From positions 1-64,000 of the forward strand of contig VEMY01000019.1 in the NCBI GenBank assembly GCA_009711825.1: a DNA stretch of 64,000 nt, read 5' to 3'. This DNA comes from Bacillota bacterium. GTDB lineage: Bacteria > Bacillota > Proteinivoracia > UBA4975 > VEMY01. The notes beneath the pieces are model-generated. The model worked only from the letters and a program-made list of their open reading frames with translations. It was not told the origin of the DNA and did no database searches. A program made the translations under genes and the position numbers. This document shows positions 48,890 through 62,506 of the stretch, one piece after another; within the stretch, counting starts at the first letter, position 1; every line of letters begins with the position of its first letter.

Positions 48890-48904
48890 CTCCCATACAA
48901 TATA

Positions 48905-48946
48905 AACATCCCCTCCCTACCAAAAATAGGGAGAGGATGTTTTTTT
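48905..48946. terminator. Bidirectional terminator between the Nudix and surface-protein genes
   Basis: Stem AACATCCCCTCCCTA (48905-48919) with TAGGGAGAGGATGTT (48927-48941), one mismatch, then TTTTTTT on the plus strand. The stop codon of the giant surface-protein gene lies in this T run. Strong for the plus strand and workable for the minus strand. Confidence 0.8.
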
Positions 48947-51900
48947 ATACCTTTTTCCGCCTGAACAGGCTCCATGTTACCACTAAAACCAGTGTTAGCA
49001 CCATAGCGCCCAGCCCAAACCACAACCAACGAGCAGCATCAGATTTAGTCTGGTTCGGATTGTCTTCGCCGGGAGTTGATTCCGGCTCCTTGCCTTCGTT
49101 TTCCCCGGCTGGGTCTTCCTGATCTTTCCCTGGGGTGCTGTCAGTCACTTCTTGGGGAGTTTCATGACTGCTGTCATCCGACACCCCGTCACCAGCGCCG
49201 GGAGTGTCACCAACTCGACTCCCACCGCCTTTATCATCCGTGTCATCGCTGTCTTCTTCCGGACCTGCGACGGTGGTAAAGCTGAAGGAAAACTCACGAT
49301 TCGGCTCGCCGCTGCTGCCCGTTACCGAATCGGCGGGAATTGATACTGTGTAAATCGCGTTCGGGCGGAGTCCGCCTGCGGGCTCTAAGTGCAGAACATT
49401 ACCCTGGGCGCCAGCGACAACTTCGCCACCGGGGCTGCTACTGCGAATACTGGCAGCGTACTCAACTTTATCTCCGTTTTGAGTAGTGATGGAGATTTCA
49501 TCAAACTGATTGCCTTTGTGAATATCCTCATTAAACGTAATATCCACTTCGGTATCCAGAGCTACATCAACCATTTGATCTAGCGGGAAGGTAAAGATAA
49601 CTGTTGGCTGATCGTAATCGGGCTCGGTGTTGAAGCCCAGAGTAAATGGTTGTCGCAACTTGTTGTCCTCAACACCCTGAACGCCTGCCGAATCAAGAAT
49701 AAGCGTATAGGCCTGGTCGTGTTCAAGATTCTCCACTGTCCGAACTCGAAGGGTGGAGTCATTTATCTCAGTATCAATCTCAACACTCTGTCCGGCTCCA
49801 TCAAAGAGATTGATTTCAGCAGCATCGCCATCAGCTTTCTGAATCGCCATATTGAAGTTGAGCTCTATTATTTGGTCAACCGGCACGGGTCGGGAGCTAG
49901 CTGCCGGCGCGAAAGATTCTATCTGCAGCGCCGGCTTATACAGAGTTACGGTGTAGATACTGTTTTCCTCAAAATACTGATTTACCCCTAGCGGAGGAAT
50001 TAATTGAGCCGTTAAATCAACACCTTCGTCACCAAGCTTCTGGTTCGCTGCATCCCAGGTAAACAGCACCTGTGTTTTCTCTCCGCTTTCCAGGGCCGGA
50101 ACCGTTGCCCTCAGCAAACTCTCCCCTTCAGCAGCTGCACCAATGTAGAGAGCAATCTCAGAATCTGCAACAGCTATGCTGCCAATATTGGCGGCTTCAG
50201 CTGTGAATAAATATCGTGTGCCACCTACCCACTGATAACGTAAATCGCTTAACTCAAGGTCTGGGGCAATGGCTGTTACCGCTGCCTGGTTGTTGGACCG
50301 GTCGCTATCCGCGACTTTTTTATCCGGGTCTACAACCACGTAGATTTCCTGCTCTTCTTCGCTTTGGGGCACCGTCCAGTCCACTGTTACCGCAGCAGTT
50401 GCCCGGGCGGGAATTACGGAATCAATCACCTGGGTTGCGCCAATTTGCTTGCCTCCCTCTGCGGGATTGCCGGCAAAGAAGGCAACTTCCACATCTCGGG
50501 CCGAGAACTCGCCGATGTTGCTGATATCCGCTGTTATGGCCACGGTACTGCCTGGGACCGGGTTCATCTGGGAAAAAGTAATATCTTCTTCCCACACTGC
50601 CAGGTCGGACCGGGGAGACAGGGAGGCAATCGAAAAGTCAGTCTGACCGGGATACACATGCTCCTCACCATCAATTGTTTCGATAATCCATTCCAGGGTG
50701 GTATATACAATCTTGAGATTACCTTCTTTGTCGACCACGGAATCCAGGGGCCGACTGACAGTCTTGTTGTCTGTGAGCCGAACTTCCCTGCTCCACACAT
50801 CTTGGGCTTGCTCATAGAACAAAGTATGAATGTCGGCGCCTTCGCCGGCATGCAGGGAATAGCTCACAGCCGCCAACCCTGCTGCCGCGTCGGTTGTCAG
50901 GATGTAATCCTGCACTCCCGGCTCCGCCCCGGGGACTGGGTGGAAGTCTGCTTCTATGTCGCCTTTCAGGTAGACCAGCTGATCGTTTAGCGACCAGACC
51001 AACAGCAGTTCGCCATTGAGATAATCAACCAAGGGGTCGGCATTGAATCCGTCGCTGATAATAACCGGGTTGCTCCACCGGCCTTCTTCAAAAGTGATGA
51101 CGTACAGATTCTGGCTTTCAGCTTCATCACCGTCCACCACAAAGGTGAGCACACCCTGTTTTCCGTTGTAGGCGAGGTCGGCGCCCGCATAGCCCTTGAC
51201 TCCGCTGGCTGCGGTTTTCGGCTCGCTCCAAGCCTTGCCGTCCCAGTAGCTAAACATAATTTCGTTGGGCTCATCAGCCGAACCGATATAGTTGCCGGCC
51301 CTATTCCGTATCCATGTCAGCACAGCCTTGTCTCCGGCGGCGGCAATGCGGGGGGAGTGATCAAGATACTGATTATCTGTCAGCATCCGGTATCCGGCCC
51401 AGTTGCCCTCTGCATCACGGTTTGCTACGGCGATTTCGCTGGCCGCCAACATCTCTTCTAGGGTCGCGTCCTGATCCAATTCCTGGTTAAGCTTTTGCCA
51501 GGCCAAAAGAGTGCTTTCATCTGTCTTTGCAAGCACGGGCAGGAAATCTGCAGTTTTCGCTTCCTCCCCGAAATCGATGAATTCCGGAGTATTCCAGGTG
51601 CTGCCGTCAAATATCGAGCACTGAAGCTGGGTGTGGTTCATGTCAGCACGTTCCGGGTTATCTGCTATCCAGACCATCACTATTCCATCATCTGAGCGAA
51701 TCAGCGACGGCTGGGGCTGGGGATAAATATTCTCCTGGAGCATCCGATTGTTCACAGCAGCGTCAGTAACGCCTTGGTTGAGCACGCCAAACCGGACCGG
51801 CTGCCAGTCGGACTGGGCCTCCAGATATGTCCGGGGCAACATTGACAGCTCTCCCTGGTCAGGAGGAGCGAGTGCGTCCCCCAGCAGGCCCAAACCACTA

Positions 51901-54900
51901 ACCGACGTGCTATTGGAATTCCAGGTATAAACCAGCGCTTCCGATTCGGCACTCATAAACAGGAACTGGGTCCTGACTCCACCTTTCAGCTGGCCCTGAA
52001 CATACCAGTCTATTTCCGGCGAAAACACAAATCTTGGACCAAGACTGCCACGAATGTAACCTTCAACACAGGCAATTCCCTTGGCGCCAGCGCCGATTGC
52101 TACCTCGACAAAGGGGGACATTCCCAATTCACCGTGAAACTCAAACTTATTTGTGTATAGTAAACCCAATCTGGCGTCCGCGCTAGCCCCGATTGTGGCG
52201 TCCAGATAAGCGGGCACCGGCCCAATCAGGAAATATTGCGTGTAACCAACGCTGCCCTCCAACTCCAAACTTACATAGCCACCGATCGGCAGCCAGTCCC
52301 CGTGGGCATCGGGAGCAAAAACATATTCCGCGCCGATAGCTCCGCCAATATCAACAGGTCCTATCTTTGTGCTGACATTGTTTCGGGCTGCCCTGCGGAA
52401 GGGGGACTTATAACCATCTGCGCCTGCTGCCACCCCGTAGACCAAATTACCAGCTTCATCTATCTCACCGTGCAAAGTTACAGTTTGCCTGTCTATCCCC
52501 AGGGTATGGGAGCCAAATACCGGCATGCCAGATGGCGCCCTGCCGGTTGCCATTCCAGGTAAACTTAAGGGTACCGAGAGCTCATACCTAACTCCCTGAA
52601 ATACGGCAACCCCCAACGGAGGCCGCTTGGCAACAACGATGCCGCCGTCATAGGCGGGGGAAGAGCTGCCGTGACCGCTGACAGCCACCACCTGGAACCT
52701 TCCTGTGTCCATTTTCCCCATATCAAGCTCACCGAAGTTATAGTCACCAATCCCTTGCCGGAAAGCATCGGCAGTAAACGCCATCCTTTCCATGCCATCA
52801 GGAGAAAGCAGGAGGAGATAGCCCGGTTTATGCCCGTGCCAGTCTATCGTTGCCTGTAAACGCACTTCCGCTTCGGTGCCCTGGAAATAGGTAAACTCGT
52901 TGCTTGCGCCGGTATCCGACAGGGTGTTCTTCCCATGCCCGGAAGTAATGCGGGTAACCACCGGCCGCTCACTGGGAATATCAGGGGTGAGCTCCACATA
53001 TCCGGTATGCTGCTTGGCGTAGAAATCCACGGTTTGTTCAAAATCATAGTAGTAGCTCGATGATATGTTAAGGCGCTGTTCGCCCATGGGAACATTTTCA
53101 ATGACATAAAAACCATCATCGTCCCGGCTTACCGGCACCCTGCCGCCGTTGAGCCGCACTACCAAGCCAGTTACGTCTTCCTCAGTATAATCGTTAATTA
53201 AGAATCTGTACGTGGAATTACTGCCTGCCGTCATACGAACCAGCCTGTCCACCTTGCGGTCCTCATAACGGAAACTCAGATTGGTATTTCCGGGCGTCAG
53301 CTCTCCCCTGGCAATGGTAAGCACAGCGCGTCCATCCCGGTTGGTGGTTACTTCCCAGGTGTCGGAAACGGAAATAGTGCGCCCCTGCAGGGGAATGCCA
53401 TTGGCCGAAAGCTCCACCGTATAGTTAAAGGTTGAAGCCGCCTGCGCCTCAGTCTCTGGCTCATAAACCAACAGCGTCCCCCCTGGTGATACGCTCATGG
53501 TGAAGTTGTCCAGGGCTTCAACGATTACTTCAACGCTCAAGCTAAACTGCTGCCCCTTATTATCGGTGGCGGTAAGGGTCACAGTATAATCGCCAGCTTC
53601 AGCATAAGAATAATTGATTTGCCGCCCAGCCTGGGTATGTCCGTCCCCCATATCCCAGCTGTAGTCCACAAGCTCCCGGCTATATTGCCGTTCCATTGCC
53701 AAGAAAATATAGGAGGCGTCGAAATCTACCGGGTCGCCCAAGAGGTGTCGGGCCGGGCTGAACTGGAAGGGCAGCAAATTGCCGGAAATCTCCTGCGCGG
53801 TGGTAAAGCTGAACCGGTAATCGTCATTTGCCTGCCCGGATTCGTCAATAATACTGCCTGCGGGCAGAATCACAGTATAGTCTGAAGAGAAGCTGAGATT
53901 GTCCACTGGAGTCACAATTAAAGTCTGGTCTTGCGTGCTCACATTTATCTCGACACTGTTGCCCGTTTCGTCCTCTAGGGATATGTCAGCGAACTTATCC
54001 CCTTTAGTCACGGGCTTGTCAAACAGCACCCGGGGCGCAATATTGACTGCCACATCTGTTTCATTGTTGGCCGGTGCAGGCAGCATTGCTGCTGTGCCCG
54101 TCTCGAAGGAGAAGGCGAAGTCATTTTCTGTTTCTACTCCCGAGGTATTGACAATCGATCCTGCCGGGACGAAAACATTGTAACGTGCATTGGGTCTCAA
54201 GTCAGTATCAGGAGAAATGCTCAAGGTTCGGCCCTGCAGATGGACCTGGGCATTAACTCGTTTGCTGTCGCTGTCCAGAAGACGGATATCCGCAAACTTG
54301 TTACCCTGGCGGACCCCTTCGTTAAAACTAATCCTGATATCGGGGTTGAGCTCTCTCTGGCCCTGCCCGGGCATGGGGTACTGACTTTCCACAACCGGTG
54401 GCGCCAAACTAGTTTCTGTTGTGAACTGATAGACTCTAACCCGCTGTAAGTCGCCATCATGGAGAACAAAGTGGGTCTCAAAGGAGTTGCCAAAATTATC
54501 CCTGACTACTCCCTGGGGAATCACCAATTCATATTCGGTGTTTCCGTCCAGCGCTGTCCGCGGCTCGACAATTAAGTTGTGCTCATTGATTGAAAACCTG
54601 GCGCCAACAGCTGCGCCGTTTTTCTCCCTGAGATAAATCTCGCCAAAATTTGGCCCGGATTGAATCACTTTCGTGAACTCCACTGTTACAACGCTATCGA
54701 GACTGACATCTGTGGCGCCCATTGCCGGATGAACCGAGGCAATTGCCGGCAGCTCCCGGTCAGCAAGGATTATCAGGTCAAATTCCTTTACCTCCCAGGC
54801 GAATCCCCTACTAAGGGTCGCGGTCAGCCGTATCTGTTGATTGCCCGCCGCCCTCGAAGGCCTGGTCACTTCTCCACCATGGGTAACGTAAGTAGTGTTG

Positions 54901-57900
54901 CTTGAGGTCCAGGTAATGCGGGAACCGTACCCGCCCCAGCCACTGAGTCCCAGATCGCCGGTAACACCGTTCAGGGAATCAGTGTCTGTAAACTCAAGTT
55001 CAAGGGCAACCCGGTCAAGAATCGCCGCTTCGAAATCTGTTACCGGCAACTTTCGGACAACCAACTCAAACTCTTTTGTGTCTGTTTCCACGCCTCTGTT
55101 TATAGTGGCGGTAAGGATGACAGACATATCTCCAGCCATATAAGCCGGACGCTTCACCCACTGGGCGTCGGCGCTCAGAACATCCGGGTGGCTGGAAGAC
55201 CAGCTGATCTTGGTTTCATTGGCCCCGTGAGCAGGCAAAGTTTCCAGGGGACGACTGACAGAGCCCGCCGAATCACCAGGGGCAAACCCCAGATTCAGGG
55301 CAGCTTTGTCTGTAGCGACTGAATCCTGGTCAGAAAGCCGGACATTGATTGTCGCCCGGGGGTTGTTTCCTACATCCATTTTAAATGTAAGGGGCAATTC
55401 TGCGATCGGCTGCGATTCCAGAAACCCAGCAGCAATGACATACTCGTTGCCGGAGACTTGGTAATCCTCGCCTGGAATCAATTCCTCTGTACCGGCGAGA
55501 ATCTTGTTCAATTGACTTCCATACGATGGGGTGAGCGTAAACTGCTTGTCCACTCCGGAACCGATAATATAATCGGCGCTCTCCGGTGCGACAAAAGACT
55601 CAAGCGTGATCACCAGTTCTCCCGGGACAAAAACTATGTCATAGTTGTCTGAACTGAAGCCTGATGGTGTAATAGCGTATGCTCCCAAATCTTCGCCAGG
55701 CATCCGGACAAGTTTTAAAGCGCCTGCAAGATTTGTCTCATCTTCACCGGGGGCGAAACCCTGATAGGTAACAGTCAGTTCCGGATCATCTTCTCCCTGC
55801 ATCTTGACTTTGTTATCGGCGCTGATACTCAAGGGCCGCTGCCCAATGGTGAGCTGGGCCGAGGTAAAGGTGATATCATACCAAGAATGGTCCAAACTAG
55901 CTTGGGTAATCTGGTAGCTCCCAACGCCTTCGCCAGGTTCACGGCCCAGGGCGCCGGTAAGGGTATCCTCGCCAAACAACTGGCCGGCAATAATCTGATA
56001 AGTGAGTTGGGGATCGGCGGCGCCGTATATTTTGCTCTTGCCGTCAGCTGAAACGGTAAGCGGAGCGGGATTAATGGTCAACGTGCCGCTCTCAAGGATC
56101 AACTCGTAATTATCCGCCGTCAGGGCATCATGGTCGATTTGGATTTCATAGCTTCCGGGGGTTTTTGCATCCACAGCCGGCCCGGTAAACCTGAGGCTGC
56201 CCAGGTCTCCCTCGCTGTCTCCCGGGACAAAACCATCGAAACTGGCAGTAAAATCGGTAAACATATTACCGTTATAGATATGTGTCGGGCTATCTGCGCT
56301 CACAACCAGCGGCTTTTTCTCAACGCTAATCTCTAAAGTGGAGCTGATCGGCTGATAGTTTTCCCTGTTGTCGGGCATGAAGGTAACTGGCACGATATGC
56401 GTACCGACCTCCGGTTTCAAAAAGGGCTCTGCAAACACGAATCTGCCAGGAAGTTCGTTGGCAACCTTCCCGCCGCTCAGTTCTGAATCCATCAGGGCGT
56501 CACCATAGATAATTGGCGCGGCCTGGGGCCATTCTTCTACCGGGGGAGTTCCCCGCTCAACGTTAAAGGTATTAGATACACCCTGGTGTCCTGCATATTC
56601 TGAGCTATATATTGTCGCCGTTAGCGTATGCTGAAGAGCCAGCTCAACTGCTATTTGGTAGTTGACGTTTGTAAGGTAGTTGTCGCCGATAAACGAGTAT
56701 TCGCTGCTTAAATTGGTCGTATGGTAAAAGTCAGGTATAACATTGCCGAATCTATCCCTGGGAACAATGCAGATAAAGAAGCTTTCCCCCACTTTCTGTG
56801 TCCCAATCTCGCCACCTTCGCCTGACTCCACCACCAGGTTATCAAAAGGCCCCGGGTCTACCGAGACTTGCCTTGAATGCACAGTAACAGGTGTAGCGCC
56901 CAGCACCGCTGTAAATTCGATAGTAATCGTTTCAGCGGTTTCATAGGCCAGATTTTCGAAGCTAACAATGCCTCCCGCAGCTCTGGCGGTGGTGACGCCA
57001 ACCAATTCTCCGGTGCCGGCGCTGATTAAGGCTGTTACAACTGTATTGTCATCATGGGTAGCTAAATTTCCGTACGCATCCAATAGGTGCAACACCGGCT
57101 GAGCGGCAAAAGGTTCACCTGCAACTGCTGTGCTCGACGGTTCCGTTTCGATGTGCAGCTGGTCGGGCGGCCCGGAAACCACAGCAATACTGTATCCATC
57201 TGTGAGCACCGTCCTGTCCGCAATTACAACCAGGTCATCGGCACTCCCTGTCTTGGAGCCGGCTTTGATGGTAATCTGCACTTCGTTCTCGACGCCGGAG
57301 TCATAATCGTACTGGACACTTTCAATCCAATCGTAAGTATCCAGGGCACTCCCGTCTTTGCGTTGAATGTCAATCTTAATTTGTCCTTCTTCTGTACCTA
57401 GATTTGTCAAGGGTCTGCCTTGTTGATCATTTACGTAAACTGAGATTGAGTTTGACTCGCTTTGGGTGGGCAGAAGAGGCAACCCTGCATCGGGACTGAT
57501 CTCGCTATTACCGGCATCAGGGACCTGGTATATAAACTCATAGGCTCCGTCTTGATTGAGCATCTTGGTAACCGGCGTCTCAGCCTGCATGTTTAGTACA
57601 GGACGCACCCAAGTTATGGTGCCAACGTTTGTAAGACCAAAATCGAAATCTGGATTTGGTTCGTTATCCCTGAAAAGCAAGCTTAATAAGTGAGCTTTTT
57701 GATTACCATTGGGTGTTCGGGTCCAGTAGTTTATACTGGGCGGAAACGGATTCGACCAATCATTATGATAAGGATGGTATGCCTTCCGGTTATTTCGAAC
57801 CGTCTCAGCGTCTCCCTGAAAGTAGGGGAAAACCTCACCAATTGAAATGTAATCAATAGATAAACCCTGGAGATAAACAATGTCATCATTTGAGCTTGCT

Positions 57901-58493
57901 CCCAACTCAGTGGCAGAGGGAATAAAGACATTATCAGTGGTTGTGTAGCTAAAGCCATTACATTCTTTGTTGGGAACTGTGGTCGGGACAATATGCTCCT
58001 TAAAATCATTGGAAAAAAAGCTGTAAAACCCTTCCGATGCGTGTACGCCAGTGCTGTTTAACCAGTGGCGTAAAACATATTTATCTCCTCCGTGGATGCC
58101 ACTGAGACCCCAGTAATTAGCCCCGCTATTATTATCGGGGTGCGGTGCAGGGTGCTGAAATATAAAATCATTGATTAGCTCTTCAGACATCAGGGTTACG
58201 CCTGAACCCTCCCCATAATGGTCTTTGGCCACCACAACCCAGGTGACGGGTTTGGTAACCGTGTCATAATCATAGCTTACGTAGTCATAATACTGCTGGA
58301 ACATTATATAATCCCAATTCCAATTGGGATCAACCACCCGATCCCCGATCTGCAAATCCCACAGGTCCTGGGTGGCGCCTCCCGCGGCCTCAACCTCTGT
58401 ACGATCCCACATAAAAGGCACAAATAAGGATAGTAAAAGTAAACACGCGATACAAATAACAACTGTTTTTATTTGCTTACTCTCATTAAACAT
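48945..58493 (-). CDS. Giant multidomain surface protein (about 3182 aa), membrane anchored at the C-terminus
   Basis: Signal/anchor at residues 10-33 and a C-terminal Ser/Thr/Asp/Glu-rich stalk (about 3074-3144), then a membrane segment and RRKKV; no LPXTG. From N to C: DUF6273-like domain (about 40-300); Ig-like domains (about 448-650); three MBG-type repeats (about 733, 818, 894); X2-like Ig domain (978); two atrophied Ig domains (1121, 1208); three Big_5/SbsA-like Ig domains (1258, 1374, 1478); PKD (WDMGDGH, about 1614); a unique glycine-rich beta region (1965-2190); a beta-propeller-like region (2237-2590); two CARDB domains (2634, 2750); two more Big_5 domains (2864, 2977). ATG at 58493 follows GAGGGGGC by 7 nt. 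Probably an adhesin or envelope scaffold. The promoter carries 11-bp direct repeats. Confidence 0.9.
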   Translation of the reverse strand: MFNESKQIKTVVICIACLLLLSLFVPFMWDRTEVEAAGGATQDLWDLQIGDRVVDPNWNWDYIMFQQYYDYVSYDYDTVTKPVTWVVVAKDHYGEGSGVTLMSEELINDFIFQHPAPHPDNNSGANYWGLSGIHGGDKYVLRHWLNSTGVHASEGFYSFFSNDFKEHIVPTTVPNKECNGFSYTTTDNVFIPSATELGASSNDDIVYLQGLSIDYISIGEVFPYFQGDAETVRNNRKAYHPYHNDWSNPFPPSINYWTRTPNGNQKAHLLSLLFRDNEPNPDFDFGLTNVGTITWVRPVLNMQAETPVTKMLNQDGAYEFIYQVPDAGNSEISPDAGLPLLPTQSESNSISVYVNDQQGRPLTNLGTEEGQIKIDIQRKDGSALDTYDWIESVQYDYDSGVENEVQITIKAGSKTGSADDLVVIADRTVLTDGYSIAVVSGPPDQLHIETEPSSTAVAGEPFAAQPVLHLLDAYGNLATHDDNTVVTALISAGTGELVGVTTARAAGGIVSFENLAYETAETITIEFTAVLGATPVTVHSRQVSVDPGPFDNLVVESGEGGEIGTQKVGESFFICIVPRDRFGNVIPDFYHTTNLSSEYSFIGDNYLTNVNYQIAVELALQHTLTATIYSSEYAGHQGVSNTFNVERGTPPVEEWPQAAPIIYGDALMDSELSGGKVANELPGRFVFAEPFLKPEVGTHIVPVTFMPDNRENYQPISSTLEISVEKKPLVVSADSPTHIYNGNMFTDFTASFDGFVPGDSEGDLGSLRFTGPAVDAKTPGSYEIQIDHDALTADNYELILESGTLTINPAPLTVSADGKSKIYGAADPQLTYQIIAGQLFGEDTLTGALGREPGEGVGSYQITQASLDHSWYDITFTSAQLTIGQRPLSISADNKVKMQGEDDPELTVTYQGFAPGEDETNLAGALKLVRMPGEDLGAYAITPSGFSSDNYDIVFVPGELVITLESFVAPESADYIIGSGVDKQFTLTPSYGSQLNKILAGTEELIPGEDYQVSGNEYVIAAGFLESQPIAELPLTFKMDVGNNPRATINVRLSDQDSVATDKAALNLGFAPGDSAGSVSRPLETLPAHGANETKISWSSSHPDVLSADAQWVKRPAYMAGDMSVILTATINRGVETDTKEFELVVRKLPVTDFEAAILDRVALELEFTDTDSLNGVTGDLGLSGWGGYGSRITWTSSNTTYVTHGGEVTRPSRAAGNQQIRLTATLSRGFAWEVKEFDLIILADRELPAIASVHPAMGATDVSLDSVVTVEFTKVIQSGPNFGEIYLREKNGAAVGARFSINEHNLIVEPRTALDGNTEYELVIPQGVVRDNFGNSFETHFVLHDGDLQRVRVYQFTTETSLAPPVVESQYPMPGQGQRELNPDIRISFNEGVRQGNKFADIRLLDSDSKRVNAQVHLQGRTLSISPDTDLRPNARYNVFVPAGSIVNTSGVETENDFAFSFETGTAAMLPAPANNETDVAVNIAPRVLFDKPVTKGDKFADISLEDETGNSVEINVSTQDQTLIVTPVDNLSFSSDYTVILPAGSIIDESGQANDDYRFSFTTAQEISGNLLPFQFSPARHLLGDPVDFDASYIFLAMERQYSRELVDYSWDMGDGHTQAGRQINYSYAEAGDYTVTLTATDNKGQQFSLSVEVIVEALDNFTMSVSPGGTLLVYEPETEAQAASTFNYTVELSANGIPLQGRTISVSDTWEVTTNRDGRAVLTIARGELTPGNTNLSFRYEDRKVDRLVRMTAGSNSTYRFLINDYTEEDVTGLVVRLNGGRVPVSRDDDGFYVIENVPMGEQRLNISSSYYYDFEQTVDFYAKQHTGYVELTPDIPSERPVVTRITSGHGKNTLSDTGASNEFTYFQGTEAEVRLQATIDWHGHKPGYLLLLSPDGMERMAFTADAFRQGIGDYNFGELDMGKMDTGRFQVVAVSGHGSSSPAYDGGIVVAKRPPLGVAVFQGVRYELSVPLSLPGMATGRAPSGMPVFGSHTLGIDRQTVTLHGEIDEAGNLVYGVAAGADGYKSPFRRAARNNVSTKIGPVDIGGAIGAEYVFAPDAHGDWLPIGGYVSLELEGSVGYTQYFLIGPVPAYLDATIGASADARLGLLYTNKFEFHGELGMSPFVEVAIGAGAKGIACVEGYIRGSLGPRFVFSPEIDWYVQGQLKGGVRTQFLFMSAESEALVYTWNSNSTSVSGLGLLGDALAPPDQGELSMLPRTYLEAQSDWQPVRFGVLNQGVTDAAVNNRMLQENIYPQPQPSLIRSDDGIVMVWIADNPERADMNHTQLQCSIFDGSTWNTPEFIDFGEEAKTADFLPVLAKTDESTLLAWQKLNQELDQDATLEEMLAASEIAVANRDAEGNWAGYRMLTDNQYLDHSPRIAAAGDKAVLTWIRNRAGNYIGSADEPNEIMFSYWDGKAWSEPKTAASGVKGYAGADLAYNGKQGVLTFVVDGDEAESQNLYVITFEEGRWSNPVIISDGFNADPLVDYLNGELLLVWSLNDQLVYLKGDIEADFHPVPGAEPGVQDYILTTDAAAGLAAVSYSLHAGEGADIHTLFYEQAQDVWSREVRLTDNKTVSRPLDSVVDKEGNLKIVYTTLEWIIETIDGEEHVYPGQTDFSIASLSPRSDLAVWEEDITFSQMNPVPGSTVAITADISNIGEFSARDVEVAFFAGNPAEGGKQIGATQVIDSVIPARATAAVTVDWTVPQSEEEQEIYVVVDPDKKVADSDRSNNQAAVTAIAPDLELSDLRYQWVGGTRYLFTAEAANIGSIAVADSEIALYIGAAAEGESLLRATVPALESGEKTQVLFTWDAANQKLGDEGVDLTAQLIPPLGVNQYFEENSIYTVTLYKPALQIESFAPAASSRPVPVDQIIELNFNMAIQKADGDAAEINLFDGAGQSVEIDTEINDSTLRVRTVENLEHDQAYTLILDSAGVQGVEDNKLRQPFTLGFNTEPDYDQPTVIFTFPLDQMVDVALDTEVDITFNEDIHKGNQFDEISITTQNGDKVEYAASIRSSSPGGEVVAGAQGNVLHLEPAGGLRPNAIYTVSIPADSVTGSSGEPNREFSFSFTTVAGPEEDSDDTDDKGGGSRVGDTPGAGDGVSDDSSHETPQEVTDSTPGKDQEDPAGENEGKEPESTPGEDNPNQTKSDAARWLWFGLGAMVLTLVLVVTWSLFRRKKV

Positions 58494-58546
58494 TGTTTTA
58501 GCCCCCTCAAAGCCAAACATCTCTAGATATTAGATACCTTGGATAG

Positions 58547-58613
58547 ATTATACACCGCGAAAAATATTCCAACCTAAAGTTAACCTAAAGATTAGCTAAA
58601 GTTTACCTTAAGA
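58547..58613 (-). promoter_or_regulatory. Promoter of the giant surface-protein gene with four 11-bp direct repeats
   Basis: Minus-strand -10 TATAAT (58552-58547), spacing to four direct repeats at 58570-58580, 58581-58591, 58592-58602 and 58603-58613. On the plus strand the units are CCAACCTAAAG, TTAACCTAAAG, ATTAGCTAAAG and TTTACCTTAAG. The repeats are one helical turn apart and the nearest one starts exactly where a -35 would be; the -35 itself is poor (GGTTGG). This is the hallmark of direct activation by a PhoB/OmpR-type response regulator dimer. The adjacent OmpR-type regulator (59668-60399) is the obvious candidate. Confidence 0.65.
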
Positions 58614-58662: not shown

Positions 58663-58707
58663 AAAAACGCCTGCACCTCTTTCACAAAAGAGGAATGCAG
58701 GCGTTTT
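58663..58707 (-). terminator. Terminator of the MTA/SAH nucleosidase gene
   Basis: Long hairpin: on the minus strand AAAACGCCTGCA pairs with TGCAGGCGTTTT, with CCTCTTT and AAAGAGG inside, loop about TGTG, then TTTTT. It separates the nucleosidase gene from the surface-protein promoter. Confidence 0.85.
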
Positions 58708-58756: not shown

Positions 58757-59431
58757 CTAGCTTAACATGGCTAAAACCAGGCGCGCCGAGACTGCTGCCG
58801 CCTGGCGGGAAAATTCGGCAAAGCTGACGGTTGCGTCGTTATCGGCCTTATCAGATATAGAGCGGATTACAATGAACGGGACCTTGTTGATATAGGCAAC
58901 ATGGGCGATGGCCGCTCCTTCCATTTCGACGCAAAGCGCACCGTAGGTGCTGAAAATCCGCTCTTTCACTGCCGGGTCTTCAATAAAGCTTTCGCCGCTA
59001 ACAATCCGCCCAGTTCTCCAGTTGGTTACGCCCGTCTCCCGGCAAGCCTTCTGGGCGCGCTGCACCAGCCCGGGGTCACAGGGAAAACTCAGGGCATAGG
59101 GAAATAAGCTCTCCATCTGGAGTGGCCGCACATCATGGTAGGTTAAGTCGTCGGCGATAACGACTTGCCCAACATCCAAATACTCTGCCAGCGCCCCTGC
59201 CACACCAGTGTTAATCACCTGGCTGACTTCGAAGCGGTCAATCATTATCTGGGCGCAGGCGGCGGCATTCACCTTGCCAACACCAGAGCAGGCAACAACT
59301 ACAGAACAATTGCCGATATGCCCCGAAGCAAAATTGATACCGGCAATTTCCCGGGTTTGGATGTCGTTTATCAGGCCATGAAACATTTCCACCTCGCAGC
59401 CCATGGCGCCAATTATGCCAGTAATAGCCAA
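58757..59431 (-). CDS. mtnN: 5'-methylthioadenosine/S-adenosylhomocysteine nucleosidase (224 aa)
   Basis: Hydrolyses MTA and SAH to adenine plus the thioribose sugar. Visible family elements: GIIGAMGCEVEMF near the N-terminus, VVVACSGVGKVNAAACAQIMIDRF, VINTGVAGAL (catalytic region), VCVEMEGAAIAHVA (Met-Glu binding the ribose) and RSISDKADNDA with the catalytic Asp. The TTG at 59431 follows GAGGGG and gives the standard 224-residue length; upstream in-frame codons would add 18 residues without a start signal. It stands alone on the minus strand. Confidence 0.92.
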   Translation of the reverse strand: MAITGIIGAMGCEVEMFHGLINDIQTREIAGINFASGHIGNCSVVVACSGVGKVNAAACAQIMIDRFEVSQVINTGVAGALAEYLDVGQVVIADDLTYHDVRPLQMESLFPYALSFPCDPGLVQRAQKACRETGVTNWRTGRIVSGESFIEDPAVKERIFSTYGALCVEMEGAAIAHVAYINKVPFIVIRSISDKADNDATVSFAEFSRQAAAVSARLVLAMLS

Positions 59432-59562
59432 GCTGATCCCCTCTTCCTCCCAGTTTCTCAAATAATACTGCATGGGAAAGAGCAAGTAAAGGTGTTGGAG
59501 CTTGATTTACCAGCGAATTAATACCACCGCTGTAACGCCCTAACAAGGAAAAACCAGTCAAT

Positions 59563-59579: not shown

Positions 59580-59667
59580 GTAAAACCGGAATGTCTTATC
59601 TAATCTAAACATCTGCGCCAACCCAAATTTTTTAGCTGGCGACTACTACCGAAAGAGGGGTATGGGA

Positions 59668-60399
59668 GTGACTGGAGAGCGGATTTTAATCGTTGAAGAC
59701 GACCCGCACATCAGCAATGTGGTGAAGCTGTATCTAACCAACAACGGATTTGATGTCTTTACGGCCGCGAATGGTACTGAGGCACTGCAAAAAACAGAGC
59801 AGATCGACCCTGACTTGGTTATCCTGGATGTTCAGTTGCCTGAAATGGATGGGATGGAAGTATGTCGGCAGATACGGCAAGACAACAATGTCCCAATTAT
59901 ATTTCTCAGCTGCAGGGCAGAAGGTACTGATAAAATTATGGGCCTGACTGTGGGCGGCGATGACTATATAACCAAACCCTTCGATCCGGGTGAACTGCTG
60001 GCACGCATCAAAGCGCATTTGCGGCGCCATACCAGGCTCAACACCCCCCCAGAACAGCAAAATGTCCAACTCTGTTTCCCCGGACTGATTATTAACCCGG
60101 CCACCCATACTGTGCAGGTGAATAACGCTGACGTTAGCTTATCGGCCCGGGAGTTTCAGCTCCTGCTGCTTCTGGCTAAACAACCCAACGTTGTATTTGG
60201 GATGGATGAAATCTACCAGCACCTGTGGCAGGCTGACAGCATTGGCGATCACAGAACTGTCATGGTCCATATCAGCAATTTGCGCAAGAAGATAGAGCAG
60301 GATTCTGCCCGCCCCAAATTTATTATGACTGTGAAGGGCGCCGGCTACAAGTTTGCCGACTCCTCAGTTGCAGACAAAGAGGGAAGCAAGGATGCGTAG
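59668..60399 (+). CDS. OmpR/PhoB-family response regulator (243 aa)
   Basis: Receiver domain with acidic pair EDD (about 10-12), phospho-acceptor Asp in VILDVQLPEMDG (about 53), Thr/Ser position LSC and Lys in DDYITKPFDPGELLARIKAHLRR. The C-terminal winged helix shows SAREFQLLLLLAKQPNVVFGMDEIYQHLWQ, HISNLRKKIE and VKGAGYKF, i.e. the OmpR type. I chose the GTG at 59668, 7 nt after GAGGGG; the ATG at 59662 directly abuts it. It overlaps the kinase gene by 8 nt. It is the obvious candidate for activating the giant surface-protein promoter. Confidence 0.94.
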   Translation: MTGERILIVEDDPHISNVVKLYLTNNGFDVFTAANGTEALQKTEQIDPDLVILDVQLPEMDGMEVCRQIRQDNNVPIIFLSCRAEGTDKIMGLTVGGDDYITKPFDPGELLARIKAHLRRHTRLNTPPEQQNVQLCFPGLIINPATHTVQVNNADVSLSAREFQLLLLLAKQPNVVFGMDEIYQHLWQADSIGDHRTVMVHISNLRKKIEQDSARPKFIMTVKGAGYKFADSSVADKEGSKDA

Positions 60400-62506
60400 G
60401 CTCATTTTGAATAGTCAGTTGAAAGCTCCAGTCCTGTTCCTTATTATTCTGGGGCTTTCATTTTTGATGGTGAATGTGGCGGGCGCGGAAAATTCTTTCC
60501 ATGAAATACACCCAACAGCAAAAAACGGGGTTCTCGACCTTACTGCCTGGGATTTAGATACTGATGGGATTGTTCCGCTGGAGGGACAATGGGAGTTCTA
60601 TTGGCAAGCGTTATTAGAGCCCGCTGACTTTGCTGATTCAAATGGCAGCCCGGAACTTATCAATGTTCCTGGCACCTGGAACCAGTATAAGGTCAATAAT
60701 GAGGCAATTGGCGGCATGGGCTATGCCACCTATAAATTATCGGTTGAGATCGATTCCCAGGACAGGTTGCTGGCTCTGAAAATTCCTCGAGTGTTTACGG
60801 CTTATACGCTCTGGATAAATGGCGAGCTCGCGGCCTCGGCTGGCAGTGTTGGCACCAGCAGGGAAAATTCCACCCCCAAATACCTGCCCCAGGTGGCCGT
60901 TTTTGATGCCGGTGAAGGTAAAGTTGAAATTGTAATGCAAGTTTCAAACTACCACCATCGCAGCGGCGGTGTGTTGGAGAACATCGGCTTTGGCCTGGAG
61001 GAACAAATCCTTGATGCCCGCTATCGGGCACTAGGTTTGGAGTTGTTTATCTTTGGTTGCCTCTTCATAATGGGGCTTTACCACTTGGGGCTATATGCCT
61101 TTCGGCGCAGTGAACTATCTTCGCTGGTGTTTGGCGTCTACTGCCTTGCCATTGGCATGCGAACACTGCTAGCGGGCGAAATATTTTTTATCTATCTCTG
61201 GCCCGGATTTAACTGGGAGGTTGCCCATAATTTGCAGACCCTGGCCTTTTACCTGGGGCTGCCCTTATTCGTTATGTTCATCCGCCTCATCTTTCCCCAG
61301 GATGTGCCCCTGCGGGCTGTACGTCTGGTCCAAGCCATCAGTCTCGCCTTCTCGCTGTTGGTGGTCTTCACGCCGGCGAGAATATTTACACACGTCAACC
61401 CCGCGTTCCAGATGTTCTTTCTGGCGACTATCCCCTACTTTGTTTACACTTTAATCCGGGCGATTCGCAATAAAAGACAAGGTGCTTTGGTAATTGGAAC
61501 TGGCGCCTTCGCCCTGATTCTTTCTACCGTCAATGACGTAATCTTTTTAAGCGTAATCATGAATGATTACCCCGCTCCCTTGTTGCGTGAAATTGTCACC
61601 AGAGGGAATCTGTCCTCACTGGGAATCTTGGCATTTGCGTTTGCCCAGGCCCTGGTTTTGGCGATGAAATTTAGTACGGCGTTCACCCGTGTCGAGGAAA
61701 TGTCGGCGGAAGTGCAGGAGCTCAACATAAATATGGAAGATAAGGTCGCCGAGCGCACTGCTGACCTGGAGAAATCCAATGAGGAACTTGATGAAGCATA
61801 TCGGGAACTGTTTAAACTGCAAAAATTCCGCCGTAATTTGCTGGCCAACATATCCCATGATCTGCGCAGCCCGATGACCACCATTAAAGGGTATGTCGAT
61901 GCAATCTTAGACGGGATGGTCAAGGATCCGAATGAACAACGCCGTTACCTGGAGGTCGTCCGGGAAAAATCCCTGGGCCTGGAGATCCTTACCCGGGAGT
62001 TATTTGAACTTGCTCGCCTGGAATCCAGAGAGGTAAATCTTGACCTTGGGGTTTTCTCAGCGGAAGAGATTGTCCAGGCCATTTACCTGAAGTACCGGTT
62101 GGATGCGGAAGCGAAAGGTATAAATCTCAGCTTAGATATCCCCGAACAAACACCGATAGTCAACGTTGACATCGAGCAAATTGCGCGGGTCTTCGACAAC
62201 TTAATTGCCAACTCAATCAGGCATAGCCCTGCCGGGGGCAGCATCACCATCGGCTACTTCGCCCAGGAAAACCAGGTGGTGTTTTCTGTGACCGATACGG
62301 GAGAAGGAATACAAGAAGCGGACCTGCCAAATATATTTGACCGTTTTTATAAGGGAGATAAATCGAGAACCGCTAGTTCCGGGGGCAGCGGCCTTGGCCT
62401 AGCGGTAGCGCGGGAAATTGTTGAATACCACGGCGGTAAAATTTGGGCCAGAAATAATCCTGGGGCTGGTAGCACCTTCGGCTTTTCACTCCCGGTGCAT
62501 CAGTGA
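60392..62506 (+). CDS. Sensor histidine kinase with 7TMR-DISM sensing module (704 aa)
   Basis: Signal/anchor, then an extracytoplasmic jelly-roll-like domain (WDLDTDGIVPLEGQWEFYWQALL...VPGTWNQY...GYATYKLSVEI...LWINGELAASAG, about 40-200), seven hydrophobic segments at about 220-430, a coiled coil, and the kinase core. The phospho-acceptor His lies in NISHDLRSPMTTIKG (about 490); the N box is NLIANSIRHSPAGG, G1 DTGEGI and G2 GGSGLGLAVAREIVE. 7TMR-DISM kinases have DISMED2-type domains resembling carbohydrate-binding folds, so a sugar or cell-wall signal is plausible. ATG at 60392, overlapping the response-regulator stop. Confidence 0.92.
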   Translation: MRRLILNSQLKAPVLFLIILGLSFLMVNVAGAENSFHEIHPTAKNGVLDLTAWDLDTDGIVPLEGQWEFYWQALLEPADFADSNGSPELINVPGTWNQYKVNNEAIGGMGYATYKLSVEIDSQDRLLALKIPRVFTAYTLWINGELAASAGSVGTSRENSTPKYLPQVAVFDAGEGKVEIVMQVSNYHHRSGGVLENIGFGLEEQILDARYRALGLELFIFGCLFIMGLYHLGLYAFRRSELSSLVFGVYCLAIGMRTLLAGEIFFIYLWPGFNWEVAHNLQTLAFYLGLPLFVMFIRLIFPQDVPLRAVRLVQAISLAFSLLVVFTPARIFTHVNPAFQMFFLATIPYFVYTLIRAIRNKRQGALVIGTGAFALILSTVNDVIFLSVIMNDYPAPLLREIVTRGNLSSLGILAFAFAQALVLAMKFSTAFTRVEEMSAEVQELNINMEDKVAERTADLEKSNEELDEAYRELFKLQKFRRNLLANISHDLRSPMTTIKGYVDAILDGMVKDPNEQRRYLEVVREKSLGLEILTRELFELARLESREVNLDLGVFSAEEIVQAIYLKYRLDAEAKGINLSLDIPEQTPIVNVDIEQIARVFDNLIANSIRHSPAGGSITIGYFAQENQVVFSVTDTGEGIQEADLPNIFDRFYKGDKSRTASSGGSGLGLAVAREIVEYHGGKIWARNNPGAGSTFGFSLPVHQ

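Follow-up and report, generated by a model that had tools for sequence, protein, structure and literature searches.

Introduction

The pho box half-site of Escherichia coli reads CTGTCAT. Direct repeats of 11 bp with 4-bp spacers are characteristic of OmpR/PhoB regulators (PMC4832192), and PhoB-type regulators contact region 4 of sigma at the -35 position (PMC3973317). E. coli PhoB touches a guanine through Arg201 and thymines through Thr194 and Val197 (PMC3973317). PhoP of Mycobacterium tuberculosis binds as tandem trimers or tetramers with a strict 4-bp spacer, tri- and tetra-repeats being bound more tightly, and in its complex with DNA the residue equivalent to position 196 of PhoB contacts base pairs 6 and 7 of the motif (PMC4832192). 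The control of giant surface proteins is rarely known.

We analysed a window of 64,000 nucleotides (positions 1 to 64,000 of contig VEMY01000019.1, assembly GCA_009711825.1) from a Bacillota bacterium, in which the gene of a giant surface protein is preceded by an array of direct repeats. The array has the same tandem 7-bp half-sites and 4-bp spacers as the PhoB regulons of E. coli and of the same genome (phoB-pstC, contig 8), with the last half-site likewise replacing the -35 element before a good -10, and the candidate regulator is of the same winged-helix family and has a similar recognition helix. It differs from the boxes of the contig-8 PhoB in its half-site (CTTTAGG, not CTTTACA) and in its targets, which are surface-protein and not phosphate genes. 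The head-to-tail tandem direct repeats are also alike in the PhoP-DNA complex, whereas the PhoP motif (TCACAGC) and regulon are different. On the sensor side, 7TMR-DISM kinases such as Pseudomonas SagS share the 7TMR-DISM_7TM domain, an extracytoplasmic module with predicted sugar binding and a link to surface or attachment traits; here, in contrast to SagS-type kinases, a simple kinase is paired with a PhoB-type regulator. We propose that this neighbouring 7TMR-DISM kinase/PhoB-type regulator pair probably activates a small surface-protein regulon through tandem CTTTAGG boxes.

Repeat array and promoter of the giant gene

The array unit at the giant gene was CTTTAGG-N4, present in four copies with an 11-bp period (58569-58612; Table 1). 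It was the best array of four 11-bp units in the window, with a score of 32 out of 36, compared with a maximum of 29 in twelve Markov sequences (first order, 64 kb each). The original prediction had described four 11-bp direct repeats, a good -10, a poor -35 and the geometry of a promoter activated by an OmpR/PhoB-type regulator, and our results agree with it: the array had the top score of the window and recurred in the genome, the -10 is TATAAT, and the hexamer at the -35 position (AGGTTG, 17-nt spacer), inside repeat R4, matches the consensus at one of six positions. The geometry is supported by four tandem 7-bp half-sites with 4-bp spacers, the last over the -35, at four promoters. The repeats had also been placed exactly up to the -35; the close placement stood, but the exact end did not, as R4 overlaps the -35 and the coordinates were one base off.

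Table 1. Positions of the features at the giant gene and of the arrays found elsewhere in the genome.
Feature	Position	Strand	Remarks
Terminator, 18-pair stem	48904..48942	minus	Strong; directly 3' of the giant gene
Giant surface protein gene	48945..58493	minus	3182 aa; ATG start at 58493 behind GAGGGGG Shine-Dalgarno
-10 element TATAAT	58547..58552	minus	18 nt downstream of base 9 of R4
Repeat R4, CTTTAGGTTGG	58569..58579	minus	Covers -35 position 58570-58575 (AGGTTG)
Repeat R3, CTTTAGGTTAA	58580..58590	minus	
Repeat R2, CTTTAGCTAAT	58591..58601	minus	
Repeat R1, CTTAAGGTAAA	58602..58612	minus	
Terminator of upstream MTA/SAH nucleosidase gene	58664..58707	minus	Inverted repeat, then T-run
MTA/SAH nucleosidase-type PNP_UDP_1 gene	58757..59485	minus	Between promoter and regulator; no array
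OmpR/PhoB-type response regulator	59662..60399	plus	Proposed activator; recognition helix HRTVMVHISNLRKKI
Histidine kinase	60392..62506	plus	7TMR-DISM_7TM, HisKA and HATPase_c; overlaps the regulator's stop codon
Array, contig 39	69746-69785		Before a paralogous surface protein gene
Array, contig 39	73847-73886		Before a paralogous surface protein gene
Array, contig 53	6193-6232		Before a 35-aa signal-peptide-like ORF

The terminator of the nucleosidase gene isolates the array promoter from read-through, so the giant gene probably depends on the array promoter. A riboswitch or other RNA leader was rejected, with no Rfam match in the window or at the regulon loci.

The giant surface protein

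The open reading frame from the first ATG extends over 48945-58520 on the minus strand (3191 aa), and the Shine-Dalgarno sequence sets the start that gives the predicted length of 3182 residues. Pfam detected DUF6273, MBG_2 (three copies), CBM_X2, aBig_2 (two), Big_5 (five), PKD and CARDB (two), and the domain list also contains a CarboxypepD_reg-like part. About 14 of these domains have an Ig-like fold, in line with the expected number of at least 12 Ig-type domains, and DUF6273, PKD and CARDB had been correctly named. The beta-propeller that had been claimed gave no clear Pfam match and is supported by structure prediction: residues about 2269-2610 form a predicted beta-propeller (AlphaFold2, pLDDT about 80), with sialidase propellers as best Foldseek matches (E about 1e-8). 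The protein begins with a signal peptide and ends with a transmembrane (TM) helix and a basic tail, and it has neither an LPXTG nor an SLH anchor (SLH looked for in Pfam scans).

The central ~990 residues are shared with giant SLH/Ig/CARDB surface proteins of 2000-3200 aa from other families of the phylum (L228-L233). The two of these homologues that were scanned with Pfam (L228 and L229) are SLH-anchored at the C-terminus, whereas the giant protein has the TM tail instead. No array was found upstream of the homologues, among those whose start is covered by sequence. Another giant ORF of the genome (3594 aa, with a PKD-like match; contig 36, 16530-27314, L184 4531-15315) was also examined, and no array promoter was found at that locus.

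Recurrence of the array in the genome

Looking for the repeat elsewhere, a check proposed with the original prediction, we detected three further full arrays; the total of full four-repeat arrays in the 3.09-Mb genome was thus 4, compared with 0 for the reversed-pattern control. The four arrays align without gaps and are conserved base by base across 41 nt, with the same order of repeat variants (GGTAAN, GCTAAN, GGTTAN, GGTT), while the spacer and the flanks differ. The distance to TAWAAT was 18 nt in all four loci, the -10 being TATAAT or TAAAAT. In all of them TG directly precedes the -10 hexamer, a placement that led us to drop the reading as a canonical extended -10. Over the 16 repeats, the half-site reads C-T-T-(T15/A1)-A-G-(G12/C4)-T. 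The two arrays of contig 39 are recent duplicates and not independent of each other. Repeats and spacing were kept while flanks and spacers diverged, which argues for selection, and repeats recurring with fixed spacing before surface genes look like the signal of a regulon, not of a single promoter.

Loose two-repeat matches were at or below the reversed-pattern control genome-wide, and beyond the four arrays only one site stood out (contig 38, position 98068; two repeats, 19 nt from TAAAAT). The exact four-repeat array was present in 0 of 397 other genomes sampled in the phylum; matches at the 18-bp level in relatives from the class and the phylum were chance-like and contained no four-repeat array. 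A literature search for the motif string CTTTAGGTTA returned unrelated matches only.

Genes behind the arrays

The contig-39 arrays precede the genes of two paralogous, membrane-anchored proteins (1053 and 1289 residues). Both start with a signal peptide, contain GLUG, YDG and MBG domains and have a TM helix at the C-terminus. In genome searches with the first 2992 residues of the giant protein and the 1289-aa contig-39 protein as queries, MBG-type similarity was found only among the three array-controlled genes, i.e. the giant gene and these two.

The perfect four-repeat promoter of contig 53 (6009-6232, L010) is followed only by a 35-aa ORF and lies right behind a SigI/RsgI operon; the ORF is probably a decayed surface-protein gene. 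The two-repeat site of contig 38 (98068-98388, L011 6069-6388) precedes a 74-aa protein with a lipobox, perhaps a further member of the regulon. Its C-terminus (WLW, TM helix, basic tail) resembles those of other array-gene products, including the giant protein, and may be a shared sorting signal. Finally, an out-of-frame remnant of the contig-39-type C-terminal tail (GLTWLWIALGALL...) was found on contig 22 (24114-24206, L183), with no array near it; it is the fossil of another surface-protein paralogue.

The neighbouring regulator and kinase

The regulator gene is divergent from the giant gene, and the nucleosidase gene, which is thought to lie outside the regulon, stands between them. The regulator has Response_reg and Trans_reg_C domains above the Pfam cut-offs, with the motifs DLVILD and TKPF and with the receiver Asp and Lys present. 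We looked for autoregulation, and no array was found before the regulator gene in this genome. The outer domain of the kinase matches no Pfam family, 7TMR-DISMED1/2 included, and is predicted as an extracytoplasmic beta-sandwich with a fold like that of the sugar-binding domain in GH2 glucuronidases.

Seven typical regulators of the OmpR/PhoB type are encoded in the genome, together with a single atypical Trans_reg_C protein. One of the seven belongs to an apparent PhoB-PhoR-PstSCAB cluster on contig 8, and in a genome scan exact matches to YTTTACA-N4-YTTTACA were limited to the promoters of phoB and pstC. At pstC the third repeat lies 18 nt from TATAGT, the same distance as in the surface arrays. 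The surface arrays read CTTTAG(G/C) and lack CTTTACA, the genome's PhoB box, which a promoter of the Pho regulon would be expected to carry; the two boxes differ at half-site positions 6-7, with GG or GC in the surface arrays and mostly CA in the PhoB boxes. Among the seven regulators, only the neighbouring one and PhoB have a VHIS(N/Q)LR helix (RTVMVHISNLR and RTVDVHISQLR, respectively), differing from each other at PhoB positions 196 (Met in the neighbouring regulator) and 201 (Asn). With the PhoP residue matched to position 196 by hand alignment, and the helix-to-base contacts borrowed from other family members, the counterpart of 196 contacts bases 6 and 7, so the differences between the proteins would fall where those between the boxes require them. 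The neighbouring regulator, already named as candidate in the original prediction, was thus the best of the seven by recognition-helix comparison, and it gained further support from motif-like arrays at orthologue-linked loci in two other families.

Orthologous pairs in other families

Using the sensor of the kinase, we traced orthologous kinase-regulator pairs in two genomes of other families (G266 and G216). The regulators are 51% (G266, helix RTVMVHISHIR) and 53% (G216, helix RTVMVHISNIR) identical to the neighbouring one, and TVMVHIS is kept in both; the kinases are both 46% identical, with 7TMR-DISM, HisKA and HATPase_c domains. We scanned the two genomes for triplets of the CTTWAGS-N4 unit, allowing three mismatches at most, with the reversed pattern as control, and obtained five matches against one in G266 and three against four in G216. 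These raw counts are close to the control and so do not prove enrichment; it is the locations that carry weight. In G266, the best site and one of the next best are separated by 2.6 kb within a cluster that encodes SLH proteins of 907-1035 residues. The best site is found 214 nt before the gene of the 1035-aa SLH protein, and TATAAT follows its third repeat at 20 nt; the other site precedes an apparently broken gene. Markov sequences of the two segments reached the observed scores in 0 and 3 out of 1000 cases, respectively. The best site of G216 lies upstream of the kinase gene, in the 142-nt gap that separates this gene from a divergent one for a SpoIIE-type phosphatase (none of 1000 shuffles as good). 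Another site of G216, inside recN (contig 2, 102478), was judged to be chance.

The motif is degenerate in both genomes (2-3 mismatches over three repeats), with a -10 spacing of 19-20 nt. We have moderate support, from these sequence comparisons, for a motif that travels with the regulator and has surface proteins as recurrent targets. We looked around 80 loci with relatives of the regulator (35-47% identity) and found no arrays. The nearest members of the class had neither arrays nor a close orthologue, so the co-occurrence of motif and regulator rests on three genomes. A degenerate four-unit array was also seen in G266 upstream of a FlaG gene that adjoins the orthologous regulator (L248 7136-7238; 19 nt from TATAAT; 15 of 1000 shuffles as good).

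Proposed mechanism and alternative explanations

We infer that the regulator binds the arrays, that it activates and does not repress, that it is the cognate one and what its signal is, as follows. A ligand, perhaps a glycan, would be recognised by the kinase's outer domain, which has the predicted fold of a sugar-binding domain, and the kinase would phosphorylate the regulator. Four winged-helix domains of the phosphorylated regulator would then bind the CTTTAGG-N4 half-sites head-to-tail and cooperatively, and the last one, over the missing -35, would replace the -35 contact and recruit RNA polymerase. With the -35 filled by the last regulator unit, the promoter should be nearly silent without phosphorylated regulator. 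The predicted regulon would include the giant protein, both contig-39 proteins with GLUG, YDG and MBG domains, the contig-53 remnant and perhaps the contig-38 lipoprotein. Beyond the original prediction, the arrays thus appear to mark a regulon of surface proteins and not one gene, with boxes other than those of the phosphate regulon.

The similarity of the two boxes, which share CTTTA and the 11-bp and 18-nt geometry, and of the two recognition helices would also fit binding of the arrays by the contig-8 PhoB encoded beside pstSCAB, with the surface proteins as phosphate-starvation genes. We consider this improbable: the 16 repeats of the arrays all have G at position 6, followed by G or C, where PhoB boxes mostly have CA, no exact CTTTACA pair occurs outside the pho locus, and a degenerate array is also present at loci linked to orthologues of the neighbouring regulator. 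Geometry alone singles out no member of the family, and the cognate regulator might be another of the seven (contigs 1, 28, 40 and 45), but their helices have K/R-R or S-F at positions 200-201, and Y or T for H in some, and no arrays were found in their neighbourhoods, so that we find this quite improbable.

The position of R4 over the -35 is also what would be expected if the neighbouring regulator bound the arrays and mainly repressed by covering the -35. This is very unlikely, since the -35 is nearly absent (AGGTTG) and basal activity should be low, and the same layout is seen at pstC, the promoter of an operon classically activated by PhoB. All four arrays have their repeat variants in one order, which suggests common descent, and they might be a duplicated promoter cassette that is recognised by a protein from a different family or has no regulatory meaning; however, flanks and spacers diverged while repeats and spacing did not, which points to selection, and the 11-bp period with 4-bp spacers is typical of sites for OmpR/PhoB regulators (PMC4832192), leaving this explanation hardly credible.

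We see about an even chance that the neighbouring pair, a 7TMR-DISM kinase whose sensor resembles a sugar domain and a PhoB-type regulator whose recognition helix carries a Met substitution, represents an undescribed two-component system, scattered over several families of the phylum, that is devoted to the control of S-layer and giant surface proteins and coexists with PhoB in the same cell by a box shift from CTTTACA to CTTTAGG through changes at two base-contacting positions. PhoB-type two-component regulation is known as a kind; the system, box and targets were not found in the papers searched, and our search returned no paper linking S-layer with PhoB and the pho box. For giant surface proteins, the proposal names a specific regulon, binding site and sensor, all as predictions. 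The two PhoB-type regulators, apparently insulated within one genome with two helix residues and two box positions that differ, offer a natural pair on which specificity in the largest family of response regulators can be tested directly.

Finally, the outer and 7TM sensor module of the kinase recurs at 43-48% identity in other families (L247, L250-L254), where it is joined to GGDEF-like C-termini; the same signal may therefore also feed cyclic di-GMP.
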